Source: Candidatus Gastranaerophilales bacterium (GTDB lineage Bacteria > Cyanobacteriota > Vampirovibrionia > Gastranaerophilales > Gastranaerophilaceae). Taken from it: a DNA stretch of 39,469 bases. The notes under the pieces were generated by a model, which did no database searches, was not told the DNA's origin, and saw nothing but the letters and a program-made list of their open reading frames with translations. The DNA lies in contig CALUXV010000013.1 of assembly GCA_944324835.1 (NCBI GenBank), positions 1 to 39,469 on the forward strand, given 5' to 3'. A program made the position numbers and the translations under genes. Every line of letters starts with the position of its first letter. Positions within the stretch are counted from its first letter, which is position 1. Of this stretch, positions 5,193-37,055 are shown one piece after another.

Positions 5193-5876
5193 TTATAGAT
5201 AGTTGGAAAGAATTGACCTAACGTAGTTTTGGGTTTCTTTATAAGGCGGAACTCCGTCATATTTTCTGACTGCGTTTGGTCCTGCATTATAAGCGGCAAG
5301 TGCTAGAATTATATTTCCATTAAATCTATTTAGCATAGATTTGACGTATTTTACACCGCCTTCAATATTTTGTCTAGGATCCATAGGATCTGTTATACCT
5401 AAACCCTTTGCCGTTGCAGGCATTAATTGCATTAAACCTAATGCTCCTGCTTTTGATTTTGCATTAGGATTGAATCCTGATTCTTGTTTAACGAGAGCTT
5501 CAATTAATTTCGGGTCAACATCGTATTTATTGGAAACTTCATTAATAATATTTAATATTTCAGATTTTGATGGTCGTTTATGGAAATTAATATTAGAAGG
5601 TATTTGTGAAGTATATAAAGATGCATTTACTTTTTCTGCTGCTTTGTTCTTCAAAAGCATGCCAAATTGTGATTTTGCAGTTGATTTAAGTACATTGTCA
5701 AAAGATTGAACTGAATCCTTTGGAGGAAGTTCAAGCTGTCCCATTGGGTTGTTATTTTTAACAATCGCCCTCTGACCGGTAAGACTGTTTACATAGTTAT
5801 TCATTTGATTATAGCGTTGCATAGCTTTTGCTTGCCCGCTTGAATTTAATAAACTTTGTAACATTTCTGAAAACAT
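5193..5876 (-). CDS. Lytic transglycosylase, SLT domain (Slt/MltE-like), without signal peptide
   Basis: The C-terminal half (about 105-227) is a GH23 SLT domain, which cleaves peptidoglycan between MurNAc and GlcNAc with anhydro-product formation. The catalytic Glu132 sits in ALVKQESGFNP, followed by SKAGALGLMQLMPATA and LALAAYNAGPNAV, the classic motifs. The N-terminal 100 residues are Gln/Asn-rich without a signal peptide or membrane helix. Such leaderless SLT proteins often serve envelope-spanning machines; given motAB nearby, export by the flagellar apparatus is possible but not shown. GAGGTAAGG precedes the ATG. The domain call is firm; the export route is inferred. Confidence 0.9.
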   Translation of the reverse strand: MFSEMLQSLLNSSGQAKAMQRYNQMNNYVNSLTGQRAIVKNNNPMGQLELPPKDSVQSFDNVLKSTAKSQFGMLLKNKAAEKVNASLYTSQIPSNINFHKRPSKSEILNIINEVSNKYDVDPKLIEALVKQESGFNPNAKSKAGALGLMQLMPATAKGLGITDPMDPRQNIEGGVKYVKSMLNRFNGNIILALAAYNAGPNAVRKYDGVPPYKETQNYVRSILSNYL

Positions 5877-6122
5877 GTACCTTACCTCACCTCGATTAAG
5901 ATAACGTCCTTCCTTACGTCATCTTTAATACACACTTTAAAATATCCACTAAATGTATTAATGATTCTTTTGGAAATGTCAAACTAGAGGGAAAATATTT
6001 TTATTTACATAAAAAATATTTTTGGTATCTTATTATGTTTTAATAAAGCTACCATTCTCTGGGCTAATGCCGCCACGAACCCCGCACATTATTTCTTTTC
6101 ATTTAGCCTCCGACTTTTACAT

Positions 6123-6139
6123 AGTGAGCAATACTCACT
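6123..6139. repeat. Short hairpin AGTGAG/CTCACT
   Basis: A perfect 6-bp inverted repeat with a 5-nt loop, in the gene-poor stretch between the transglycosylase and recN regions. It sits just left of a longer inverted repeat and may be part of the same element. Confidence 0.4.
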
Positions 6140-6155
6140 TATTGAAACAAAGTCA

Positions 6156-6245
6156 AGAAATGTGCTGTTTGAGGCAGAAAATACTTTTTATTTTGATTTT
6201 TTTACTATTTGGATAGTGTATATTTTCTGCCGAGTTCACATTTCT
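6156..6245. repeat. Two-block inverted repeat, arms about 27 nt
   Basis: The left arm holds AGAAATGTG (6156-6164) and GGCAGAAAATA (6173-6183). The right arm holds the exact complements TATTTTCTGCC (6221-6231) and CACATTTCT (6237-6245). The blocks are separated by 8 nt and 5 nt, and the AT-rich loop is 37 nt. Twenty base pairs match exactly. There is no transposase, so a miniature inverted-repeat element or a structured RNA are the options. Confidence 0.6.
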
Positions 6246-6316
6246 GGGGTTGAAATTAGACGTAGGTTAGACTTATAATCCGACAATATAAAATTCAAGA
6301 TAGTACAAAATCAATT

Positions 6317-6410
6317 GTTGGGTTTCTGTCATGCTGAACTGGTTTCAGCATCTTACCAACGTTGAATTTCAGCCTACCACGCCGGTAAGAACCTGAAATA
6401 AATTCAGGTT
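6317..6410. repeat. Cluster of palindromic units (three nested or adjacent hairpins)
   Basis: GTTGG (6317-6321) pairs with CCAAC (6356-6360) around an inner hairpin ATGCTGAA/TTCAGCAT (6331-6338, 6344-6351). A second foldback TACC/GGTA lies at 6375-6387, and a third perfect 8-bp hairpin AACCTGAA/TTCAGGTT spans 6390-6410. This arrangement is typical of dispersed intergenic palindromic repeats. Copies elsewhere in the genome cannot be tested here. Confidence 0.55.
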
Positions 6411-6487
6411 GACAAAATAAACAAATTTTGTTCTTTATACTACTTTTATATAAAATTATTATAGATAATTGTGCATAGACAAAGAGA

Positions 6488-6510
6488 TTCTTCGGGCTTT
6501 GCCCTCAGAA
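6488..6510. repeat. Imperfect hairpin with GGGC/GCCC core
   Basis: TTCT-tc-GGGC, a 3-nt loop TTT, then GCCC-tc-AGAA. It is GC-rich compared with its surroundings and lies in the same repeat-bearing stretch. It lacks a following T-run, so it is not a clear terminator. Confidence 0.4.
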
Positions 6511-6522
6511 AGACAAAAGCCT

Positions 6523-6554
6523 AGTCACTTAATCACTTAATCACACAGTCACTT
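6523..6554. repeat. Octamer tandem repeat, four units
   Basis: Four consecutive 8-nt units read AGTCACTT, AATCACTT, AATCACAC, AGTCACTT. No open frame or RNA signal accompanies them. Such short arrays often vary in copy number by slippage. Confidence 0.6.
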
Positions 6555-6595
6555 CGCATAATATTTTTTATGTAAATTTTAAAATAAATTTATTA

Positions 6596-6802
6596 TCAAA
6601 AAGTTATAATTTTAGGATAATTATAAACCACTCTTAAAACAGGGGTTATAAAAAGATTGTCCTTATTAATGAATATATTCCGCCTGTCGCCAATGTCTCC
6701 GGAACACGCAGTTGAGGTATCGATTGAGCAGACGGAATATACCGGTGATAAAAAACCAAGAAAACCGACGAATAAAAAAACATTCATACATTCCTTAAAC
6801 AT
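6596..6802 (-). CDS. Small secreted hypothetical protein
   Basis: A 68-codon frame downstream of recN. It has a hydrophobic leader (MNVFLFVGFLGFLSPVYS) followed by a short polar part with two cysteines (VCSIDTSTACSGDIGDRRN). The internal ATG at 6787 has AAGGA just upstream and may be the true start; the ATG at 6802 has AAGG only one base away. The leader and composition suggest a real exported peptide rather than chance, but the C-terminal third (VLRVVYNYPKIITF) looks random. I do not recognise a family, and it could be a truncated gene. Confidence 0.45.
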   Translation of the reverse strand: MFKECMNVFLFVGFLGFLSPVYSVCSIDTSTACSGDIGDRRNIFINKDNLFITPVLRVVYNYPKIITF

Positions 6803-6868
6803 ACCTTAAGGATACACGAAGTTTTTTATTTTATAACAGCCAGTTTAACTAGGTATAAGGTCTAATAT

Positions 6869-8515
6869 TTAACTTACTAGAGTTTTTGCAAATTCAATTG
6901 ATTTATCGGTAATTTCTCCGCTTGCAAGTTCTGCAAGAGCTTTCAGTTTATCATCTTCGTTCAGAATGTATATTCCGACCTGCGTACTGTCACCTTGAAC
7001 TTTTTTGACGTAAATGTGTTTATCCGCCTTTGAAGCAATAATTGCCTGATGCGTAATCATTATAATTTGACGATATTGCGCAAGTTCAGATATTTCTTCG
7101 GCAACCCTTTGAGAAGTTTTTCCGGAAATACCGGTATCAATTTCATCGAATATAACAGTATCAATATCGTCATGCTGGGCAAATATTGTTTTAAGTGCAA
7201 GCATCACACGGGAAATTTCACCGCCTGATGCGACTTTAGCCAATGGTCTTAATGGCTCTGAAACATTTGTTGAAATCAAAAACTCAACGTTATCTATTCC
7301 GTATTTATTGAGCTCTGTATCTTGTATATCTATTTTGAATTGAACCTTCGGGAGTTCAAGTTTCTCAAGTTTTTCTACAATCAAACCTGATAGGACTTCT
7401 GCATACATCTTTCTTTTTTCAGATATTTCTTTGGCTAGTTTTGTTAATTTTAATTCAATATTGCTAACCTTTTGCTCCAATTCTTCAATATTGCTTTCAT
7501 AGTTTTCAATTGCAGAATATTCTTCTCTAAATTTATCCAGAGAATTAAGTACAGTTTCTAACGTTCCGCCGTACTTGCGCTTTAACTTGTCCAGATTGAA
7601 TAATCTTTCCTGAATTGCATTTAACCGCTCGGTATCATTATCCAGACTCTGTGAATAATCTCTCAATGTTGATGATAAATCTTTCAAAATTTCAATTGCA
7701 TTTATTAATTCTGACTCCGAGTCAGTTAAATTTGAATCCATATTTGATGCTTTTGAAAGATTCATTTTTAGCTGAGAGAGAGCATTTAAAATTGAGTCGT
7801 CATCGTTAGACAGAGTCCAGGAAACAGAACCGGTCAGTTCTTTTAATTTTTCAGCATTATCAAGCACTACAAGTTCATTTTCAAGTTTGGTATCTTCATC
7901 GATTTCTTTTATTTCTGCTGCTTCAATTTCATCTATTTGAAATTTTAAAAACTCAATTTGATTCTCTGTTAAATTATTAGCATTTTTAGCCTGTTCAAGT
8001 TTTTGTTTTGCTTCGGTATATTCATTATATAAATTTGAATATTCTTTAAACAAATCTTCACAGGTTGCTTTTGCATAAGAATCTAATAGGTTTATATGAT
8101 ATTTGGGCTGCATAAAAGAATAAGTTTGATGCTGCGAATGAATATCAATAAATTTTTCCCTTAAAAGTTTTATAAAATCTTGATTAACAAGAGTTCCATT
8201 TACTCTTGAGCGTGTGCCTGAGGGTGTTATTTCTCTTGAGATAATAAGTTCGTTGCCGAAATTTTCAATTCCATTTTCTTCAAGGATTTGGTTTATCGGA
8301 CTGTTCAGAAATAAAGACAGTTCTATATAAGCTCTGTCAGAGCCGGTTTTAATACAGTCTTTAGAAACTTTGGCTCCAAATACAACATCAATTGCGCCGA
8401 TTAGGATACTTTTACCGGAACCTGTTTCACCGGTTATAATGTTTAATTTGTTACTGAACTCCAACTCCAGTTTGTCTATAAGTATGTAATTTTGAACAAC
8501 TATCTTTTTTAACAT
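6869..8515 (-). CDS. recN: DNA repair protein RecN
   Basis: RecN is an SMC-like ATPase acting in double-strand-break repair. At 548 residues it has normal length. Walker A GETGSGKS is at residues 29-36, a long coiled-coil middle (about 155-390) is rich in Glu, Leu and Lys, and the C-terminal ABC signature ASGGEISRVMLAL is followed by Walker B VIFDEIDTGISG. It is the last gene of the housekeeping run after era (31-nt gap). There is no Shine-Dalgarno; instead a promoter lies between era and recN with its -10 box 6 nt from the ATG. No SOS-box-like palindrome was seen. Confidence 0.96.
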   Translation of the reverse strand: MLKKIVVQNYILIDKLELEFSNKLNIITGETGSGKSILIGAIDVVFGAKVSKDCIKTGSDRAYIELSLFLNSPINQILEENGIENFGNELIISREITPSGTRSRVNGTLVNQDFIKLLREKFIDIHSQHQTYSFMQPKYHINLLDSYAKATCEDLFKEYSNLYNEYTEAKQKLEQAKNANNLTENQIEFLKFQIDEIEAAEIKEIDEDTKLENELVVLDNAEKLKELTGSVSWTLSNDDDSILNALSQLKMNLSKASNMDSNLTDSESELINAIEILKDLSSTLRDYSQSLDNDTERLNAIQERLFNLDKLKRKYGGTLETVLNSLDKFREEYSAIENYESNIEELEQKVSNIELKLTKLAKEISEKRKMYAEVLSGLIVEKLEKLELPKVQFKIDIQDTELNKYGIDNVEFLISTNVSEPLRPLAKVASGGEISRVMLALKTIFAQHDDIDTVIFDEIDTGISGKTSQRVAEEISELAQYRQIIMITHQAIIASKADKHIYVKKVQGDSTQVGIYILNEDDKLKALAELASGEITDKSIEFAKTLVS

Positions 8516-36563: not shown

Positions 36564-36590
36564 AAGTAAAAATTAAATAATAAATAAAAT

Positions 36591-36710
36591 GTTTTCTAGG
36601 GTTCCGCAATCAATAATTGGTCTGGTCCGAGAGAAAACACACAAGTTAGTCTTGTGAACACGGAAGGATAAAAGCCCGGGAGATAATTAATAAATATCTC
36701 CCGGGTTATT
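36591..36710 (+). ncRNA. Guanidine-I (ykkC) riboswitch with terminator
   Basis: The conserved pieces of the ykkC class occur in order: CTAGGGTTCCG, GGTCTGGTCCGAGAG, a variable hairpin CACAAG/CTTGTG, then ACACGGAAGGATAAAAGCCCGGGAGA. The final GGGAGATA is shared with an 11-bp terminator stem CCCGGGAGATA/TATCTCCCGGG (36675-36685, 36695-36705) followed by a T-rich run. Guanidinium binding is known to stabilise the aptamer and let transcription proceed. The downstream gene is a guanidinium exporter, as expected. Confidence 0.93.
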
Positions 36711-36737: not shown

Positions 36738-37055
36738 ATGAAATGGATTATTTTACTTATTGCAGGAATTTTTGAAATCAGCTGGGCCGTCGGATTAAAA
36801 TTTTCGCACGGTTTTTCAATATTAATACCGTCTGTAATCACTGTAATATGTATGATTTTAAGTTTTTATTTCTTAGCATTAGCATTAAAAAGTCTACCAC
36901 TGGGAACTGCATATGCAATTTGGACAGGAATAGGAACTTTAGGTACTGTTATATTTGGAATAATTCTTTTTAAAGAACCAATAACAGCAATGAGATTATT
37001 ATGTATTGGTTTAATATTAAGCGGTATAACCGGTTTAAAATTAATAACACATTAA
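36738..37055 (+). CDS. gdx: Guanidinium exporter Gdx (SugE-type small multidrug resistance protein)
   Basis: A 105-residue, four-helix SMR protein that works as an antiparallel dimer and exchanges guanidinium for protons. The key Glu13 lies in AGIFEISWAVGLK, with Trp16 and Lys21; GLK and WAVGLK separate Gdx/SugE from EmrE. GTAYAIWTGIGTLGTVIFG and LFKEPIT are also present. It lies directly under a guanidine-I riboswitch, which confirms the substrate by established linkage. AAAGGA precedes the ATG. Confidence 0.95.
   Translation: MKWIILLIAGIFEISWAVGLKFSHGFSILIPSVITVICMILSFYFLALALKSLPLGTAYAIWTGIGTLGTVIFGIILFKEPITAMRLLCIGLILSGITGLKLITH

Follow-up and report, generated by a model that had tools for sequence, protein, structure and literature searches.

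A MITE-like composite insertion in a Gastranaerophilales genome and a possible GIY-YIG mobiliser of CGTC-tagged REPs

MITEs are short, non-coding elements with inverted ends. RAYTs are HUH tyrosine transposases. Free-standing GIY-YIG homing endonucleases are encoded by small nuclease genes and may spread by cutting sites that lack the gene. In the REPIN/RAYT system, as set out in the accessible parts of PMC3116915 and PMC2817692, non-autonomous inverted REP pairs coexist with a rare gene that has these REPs on either side. A further class, the CGTC-tagged REPs (Di Nocera et al. 2013, PMC3733652), includes rickettsial repeats and the neisserial dRS3. The accessible part of that survey gives these repeats a CGTC or TGTC tag, an 8-9 bp stem usually starting with AT, a 5-nt loop and an occurrence as dispersed dimers, and it associates no transposase gene with them.

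The feature described here occupies positions 5877-6595 of the window, the whole 39,469-nt stretch of DNA that was analysed, from a Candidatus Gastranaerophilales genome (Melainabacteria). It combines features of known kinds, namely a MITE-like shell and the REPs inside it. Like MITEs, the element is short and non-coding, with 18-nt perfect inverted ends and several dispersed copies in intergenic positions; unlike MITEs, its copies differ strongly inside, and neither a consistent target-site duplication nor an autonomous partner was found at the sites and in the genomes sampled. As with GIY-YIG homing endonucleases, a small nuclease gene may be spreading by cutting gene-less sites, but in this case high-copy palindromes flank the gene, and it does not lie in an intron or phage gene. 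Inverted REP pairs and a rare gene bracketed by the same REPs recall the REPIN/RAYT system as far as the sources above describe it; here the tag is CGTC or TGTC and the gene encodes a GIY-YIG protein, whereas the RAYT system has a GTAG tag and a tyrosine transposase. From the CGTC REPs, as characterised in the accessible part of PMC3733652, a dimer in the window shares the tag, stem, loop and dispersed dimer form, but differs in its tail (CTTACCA) and in that the REPs here associate with a GIY-YIG gene. Most units at the plasmid-borne GIY-YIG genes described below are also CGTC- or TGTC-tagged and have the CCA tail of that class.

A lineage-specific insertion between recN and a lytic transglycosylase gene

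About 0.6 kb of lineage-specific DNA has been inserted here, between recN (6869-8515, minus strand; Pfam PF02463) and a lytic transglycosylase (SLT) gene (5193-5876, minus strand; Pfam PF01464, E 7.7e-33). Using recN as the query for finding relatives, we obtained 80 loci, seven of which (L053-L059) have an adjoining transglycosylase gene. Their recN identity is 84-96% and they were treated as the same genus, the next best locus being at 66%. The gap between the two genes measures 992 nt in the source genome versus about 370 nt in all seven close relatives, and the insertion is missing from every one of them, including the closest, which has an empty site. The flanks of other copies in the source genome were also matched in seven same-genus genomes, and several of those sites are likewise empty.

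Between recN and the transglycosylase gene, all eight genomes compared have a small ORF (63-65 aa). In the window it encodes 63 aa with a signal-peptide-like start (6596-6787, minus strand) and has no Pfam match; its homologues in the seven relatives are 64-65 aa. Differences summed over pairs are concentrated at codon position 3 (487, versus 285 and 202 at positions 1 and 2). The boundary of this ORF coincides exactly with the edge of 5877-6595: its 3' end is the insertion site, and its final codons are unlike those of the relatives. No ORF of 80 aa or more occurs in 5877-6595, in agreement with a preliminary description of this DNA that had seen no convincing gene there, and no tRNA or tmRNA that could serve as a target occurs in the window. 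Elsewhere in the window, an ordinary guanidine-I riboswitch (Rfam RF00442, 36585-36684) lies just 5' of a 105-aa ORF (36738-37055), judged by eye to encode a small multidrug-resistance-type exporter.

The strongest feature of the stretch, overlooked in the preliminary description, is an 18-nt perfect inverted pair that bounds a composite non-coding element at 6003-6577 (left end 6003-6020, plus strand, core TTTACATAAAAAATATTAT; right end 6560-6577, minus strand), missing in all seven relatives. In these AT-rich and diverged surroundings, the exact ends of the insertion can be placed only within about 5985-6003 and 6577-6615. In 100 dinucleotide shuffles of 5877-6595, no inverted arms of at least 16 nt arose. 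At 11 nt or more and any distance there are three such arms versus a shuffle mean of 0.22 (0 of 100 shuffles), and three exact ones of at least 9 nt with loops no longer than 100 nt, versus a mean of 0.69, a count reached by three of the 100 shuffles.

The TTTACATAAAAAATATTAT end pattern defines a repeat family. With at most one mismatch it has 10 sites in the source genome, one of which (on contig C21) is probably chance, versus 0 for the reversed pattern; at two mismatches the counts are 23 and 9. Among same-genus relatives, G003 alone is clearly above its control (6 versus 0), and single sites in several others do not exceed the control frequency. In a sample of 97 family genomes drawn evenly from the larger group, exact matches occur in 6 genomes and 5 of 41 genera (five in G079, two in G082), versus two matches of the reversed pattern, so single matches there may be chance. 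Ends facing each other were found in the source genome on C13, C6, C44 and C29, and on C46 with a diverged left end, where the element length was set by hand. The elements enclosed in this way measure 335-679 nt and occur in the source genome, in G003 and in two other genera (G079 and G082). In one element of another genus (L356, G079), longer inverted flanks resembling GCTGTACATGTCAAG were seen by eye beyond the core end.

The interiors of these elements are mosaic. Ten of them, compared pairwise, have from 0 to 89% of their length in common; the window element matches that on C6 over 305 nt at 92% and that on C46 over 511 nt at 81%. We searched for a partner by the end pattern in the source genome, eight genomes of the genus and the 97 family genomes, and found no plausible transposase or autonomous partner in the ten elements opened, which come from three genera of the sampled genomes. 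The longest stop-free frame among them spans 104 aa, and the element that contains it includes a run of N. No consistent target-site duplication was found at C13, C6, C44, C29, C37/C92 or a relative's L134, where the empty sites are diverged; C13 and C6 each permit a short, ambiguous duplication, on which we make no claim. Shared ends, divergent interiors and the lack of a transposase thus point to a family of MITE-like shells with exchangeable interiors, and the outer shell was presumably moved by a transposase. Several outer-element ends adjoin hairpin-T-run sequences, from which we do not claim terminator targeting.

Repeats inside the element

Judged by its sequence, the interior is a patchwork of smaller palindromic repeats gathered there. 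Leftmost is the truncated left part of a long-hairpin repeat module (6101-6259, plus strand), with partial copies on C1, C6, C9, C37 and C46; its right arm, seen by eye on C1, C6, C9 and C37, is missing from the window. The module contains the two-block inverted repeat of the preliminary description (6156-6245), which does pair exactly over 20 bases, in blocks of 9 nt (6156-6164 with 6237-6245) and 11 nt (6173-6183 with 6221-6231). The hairpin cluster reported at 6317-6410 resolves into two 8-bp hairpins (6331-6351 and 6390-6410), which form a dimer of two inverted TGTC-tagged REPs with the tail CTTACC (6327-6414). A second TGTC-tagged REP type, TGTCTTTCTGAGGGCAAAGCCCGAAGAATCTC on the minus strand, follows at 6484-6515 with one mismatch in its outer stem; both REP types were identified by a hairpin detector and by their copies in the genome. 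Beside the right end lies a degenerate CACTTAAT/AGTCACTT octamer array (6523-6554, plus strand). The octamer array noted previously proved to be just 2.5 copies of TCACTTAA at 6525-6544 that belong to this looser array, and several other copies also have the array beside the inverted repeat. With the inverted repeat at 5992-6022 and the hairpin unit at 6487-6514, the two-block repeat and the two hairpins account for the five foldback units first described.

These units recur within the source genome, as expected of the "dispersed palindromic unit" that had been proposed. With 40 of 126 candidates scored, BLAST of 5877-6868 gave at least 85 matches, the query itself among them, and they fall mostly on sub-blocks and not on the whole query. 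The preliminary description had named a lack of further genomic copies as grounds for refutation, and that condition does not hold. The suggestion of a landing zone for miniature elements also held up, given the absence of the insertion from all seven close relatives and the existence of same-ended elements with largely different interiors. As a whole, the earlier interpretation is partly supported.

The only TGTC-tagged hairpins detected in the 39-kb window are the dimer and the unit at 6484-6515, one mismatch in the second stem type being allowed in this window scan only. No GTAG-tagged hairpin, the tag of the REPs in the REPIN system, was detected in the window. The dimer carries the tag of the CGTC superfamily (TGTC, at 6327-6330 and again at 6411-6414 on the minus strand), and both of its hairpins have an 8-bp stem and a 5-nt loop, within the superfamily range of 8-9 bp and 4-5 nt. 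The first stem residues are AT in 6331-6351 and AA in 6390-6410 (minus strand). In the tail, CTTACCA, the CCA comes four bases later than in the superfamily. The unit at 6484-6515, with a 5-bp outer stem (one mismatch) and an inner stem, falls outside the superfamily stem range. At least two interior units appear to be TGTC/CGTC-tagged REPs, and the tag, stem and loop of the dimer agree with the CGTC REP superfamily as the accessible part of PMC3733652 defines it, the tail less well.

The dimer-type REP pattern has 14 matches in the source genome versus 0 for the control, and it occurs in 74 of the 97 family genomes, the reversed pattern in none. We aligned dimer copies from the source genome, picked by similarity, as 36 distinct rows with some copies in both orientations. 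Of 272 stem pair cells 268 are intact, with paired changes at several positions; when the partners are slid by 1-3 positions, 48-151 of 263-277 cells pair. Covariation is thus seen in the REP stems, but the pattern suits DNA hairpins as well as RNA. At L007, L016, L005 and L004 of the source genome, several module junctions coincide with the loops of REP hairpins (CCTGAA followed by GGGGTAAAT is one example; seen by eye, uncounted), as if the loops were insertion points.

Association of CGTC-type REPs with one GIY-YIG class

The source genome encodes two single-domain GIY-YIG proteins (on C14 and C65), in addition to one 561-aa frame of UvrC length. The C14 gene lies among dimer-type REPs and the C65 gene among single-unit-type REPs; a PDB sequence search with the C14 protein gave no match up to E 0.1. 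Since both genes lie amid REP hairpins, we surveyed single-domain GIY-YIG loci across the family sample. Among the matches listed, 116 loci have an open frame below 200 aa; nine UvrC-length loci and three other stretches were excluded from all counts. Proteins with the motif [AS]K[YF]T were classed as Y (YhbQ-like, 75 loci) and the rest as R (41 loci). When all 41 R proteins and 25 of the Y proteins were placed in a midpoint-rooted tree, 40 of the R proteins formed one pure clade.

A CGTC-type REP lies within 250 nt of the gene at 28 of 41 R loci (upstream at 23, downstream at 24, on both sides at 19) versus 0 of 75 Y loci (Fisher p about 3e-17, which overstates the evidence because the loci are related by descent). 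For the other 13 R genes, the detector finds no CGTC-type REP. These figures follow a revision of both rules. A first motif rule, which left 16 of the 116 loci unassigned, was replaced, and the detector was given a second stem type, a distance of 250 instead of 400 nt and an allowed overlap of up to 40 nt with the gene end. Under the first rule and detector, REPs were found upstream at 18, downstream at 14 and on both sides at 12 of 32 R loci, versus 0 upstream and 1 downstream among 68 Y loci; for the 16 unassigned loci the counts were 2 upstream, 3 downstream and 1 on both sides.

Of the 19 two-sided R cases, 16 have inverted nearest REPs, with tags that point outward in 12 and inward in 4; in the other 3 both REPs run in the same direction. 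Where the tags point outward, the upstream REP lies 7-67 nt from the start codon (22-30 nt in eight of these cases), and the downstream REP starts anywhere from 30 nt ahead of the stop codon to 32 nt past it. At one locus (L254, G076), the inverted repeats around the GIY-YIG ORF match perfectly for 68 nt, well past the REP. Per genome, REP and GIY-YIG counts are weakly correlated (Spearman 0.28, p 0.005). The median number of REP pattern matches is 16 in the 32 genomes with a listed R gene versus 4 in the 65 without; an R gene occurs in 3 of the 23 genomes that lack the REP pattern, and five genomes with at least 40 REPs have no R gene among the matches listed.

Outside the family, tblastn with the C14 protein gave 33 plasmid records, of which 16 were examined, chosen for different organisms; one Neisseria record, counted apart, has its GIY-YIG gene amid 12 CGTC hairpins. 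CGTC- or TGTC-tagged hairpins lie within 100 nt on both sides of the gene in nine of the 16: Aeromonas caviae, three Shinella (two being the same site), Neorhizobium, Azospirillum lipoferum 4B, Sinorhizobium meliloti Ak57, Rhizobium sp. CIAT894 and Sphingobium TomTYG46. Their REP tails are mostly CCA, with CCC in Sphingobium. The Photobacterium record has hairpins downstream only, the nearest at 184 nt. The detector found no countable REP in the remaining six: no hairpin was detected in Planktothrix, Novosphingobium, Rhizobium tumorigenes or Rhizobium K1/93, and Sinorhizobium C101 and Spirosoma have one hairpin each with a different tag. In total, the 16 records contain 37 hairpins, versus a mean of 0.9 in shuffled and 3 in reversed sequence. 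A. lipoferum and S. meliloti are also among the species named in the accessible part of PMC3733652. In A. lipoferum 4B, the GIY-YIG gene and its two-sided CGTC REPs lie between sufB and sufC on plasmid AZO_p3 (L340).

The upstream spacing amounts to 20 nt in four rhizobial records (two of which represent one Shinella site), even though their REP stems differ by host. In S. meliloti Ak57, a full 375-nt unit adjoins a shorter one made up of the first 44 nt (93% identical) and the last 121 nt (95% identical) of the full unit. We read the shorter unit, in which both REP ends are kept, as an internal-deletion derivative. By eye, the whole Shinella unit is missing from three relatives, and at the Ak57 site Sinorhizobium K101 has no gene while REP-like hairpins remain.

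A candidate mobiliser of CGTC REPs and its alternatives

The reading that we prefer, and hold to be rather likely, combines a MITE-like shell and its patchwork interior with REPs derived from, and spread by, GIY-YIG units. A non-autonomous, MITE-like shell with AT-rich terminal inverted repeats would have inserted between recN and the transglycosylase gene, and smaller palindromic repeats, including at least two TGTC/CGTC-tagged REPs, would have collected inside it. The mobile unit behind these REPs may be a single-domain GIY-YIG nuclease gene enclosed by inverted REPs, and the dispersed REPs may be the unit's non-autonomous ends or deletion derivatives. The nuclease, for which the source genome has two such genes, would provide the cutting step that spreads the REPs; that it cuts REP DNA and drives this spread is suggested by gene neighbourhood. 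For the broader proposal we see an even chance: that CGTC REPs have a dedicated GIY-YIG mobiliser, as a second REP system parallel to GTAG REPs and RAYTs, in Melainabacteria and Proteobacteria, and that REP dimers, including 6327-6414, are its non-autonomous derivatives. Counting against the preferred reading, 7 of the 19 two-sided cases depart from the tags-outward layout, the detector sees no such REP at 13 of 41 R genes and in 6 of 16 plasmid records, and REP and GIY-YIG counts are only weakly correlated. The CTTACCA tail, the excess of end sites over control shrinking to 23 versus 9 at two mismatches, and the failure to find a target-site duplication or transposase for the outer element at the sites and in the elements compared also weigh against it. 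In the open-access literature, judged partly by titles, we found no earlier report linking GIY-YIG genes with CGTC REPs, and the titles on nested MITEs and on Gastranaerophilales repeats indicate no such link.

The association by itself would be compatible both with a nuclease that moves REPs and with one that sits in them. The GIY-YIG gene could then be a passenger that inserts into REP hotspots while another agent spreads the CGTC REPs, a possibility that we consider unlikely but worth weighing. According to the accessible part of PMC1525189, REPs are known targets of other insertion sequences, and the 13 R genes without REPs, as well as R genes inside long REP clusters (such as that on C14), are consistent with a passenger. 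The constant 20-nt upstream spacing in the four rhizobial records (two from one Shinella site), where REP stems vary by host, argues against it, as do the inverted arrangement of the nearest REPs in 16 of the 19 two-sided cases and the retention of both REP ends in the Ak57 deletion derivative. Moreover, the association is absent in two other gene classes, the YhbQ-like genes and the Y1 transposases.

Less probable still is ordinary repeat decay, in which old fragments were joined by recombination, nothing is still moving and no special mechanism is involved. One-ended copies and truncated modules, such as those on C9 and C36, would be expected from it, but the 18-nt ends of the window element are perfect, its long matches on C6 and C46 remain at 92% and 81% identity, and the site in the closest relative is empty.

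That RAYT transposases mobilise CGTC-type REPs as well as GTAG REPs we regard as very unlikely. The source genome does encode a RAYT (L143, contig C8, ORF 470-1000; NF047646, 135 bits), preceded at 26 nt by a GTAG-tagged hairpin, the arrangement described for REPs with this tag. A degraded CGTC-like hairpin, uncounted by the detector, was seen by eye about 160 nt past its stop codon. For comparison we took from the same genomes the 30 of 46 listed Y1 matches that have loci, assigned as RAYT-type by Pfam, with the one in the source genome checked by NCBIfam as well. GTAG REPs accompany 19 of the 30, and CGTC-type REPs only 2, on both sides in none. Conversely, none of the 116 GIY-YIG loci of either class has GTAG REPs. 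In addition, at E 1e-6 Y1_Tnp goes unmatched in 65 of the 97 family genomes, yet the REP pattern occurs in 74, and the window has no GTAG palindrome with the detector.

The weakest reading, also raised in the preliminary description, is that structured non-coding RNA, of one kind or several, is encoded here. The hairpins and the compensatory changes in REP stems speak for it; it was rejected as the main reading and has a very slight chance of being right, since a scan of the whole window with Rfam 15 matched only the riboswitch at 36585-36684 and the region itself has no match at gathering scores, the long-hairpin module is truncated here, the stretch is absent from all seven close relatives and element interiors are poorly conserved.

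A specific gene association makes the question of CGTC REP mobilisation testable. If the preferred reading is true, some of the many short genes annotated as "GIY-YIG nuclease family protein" would be mobile-element genes, and there would be a mechanism for the REP class to which, according to the accessible part of PMC3733652, rickettsial repeats and neisserial dRS3 belong.
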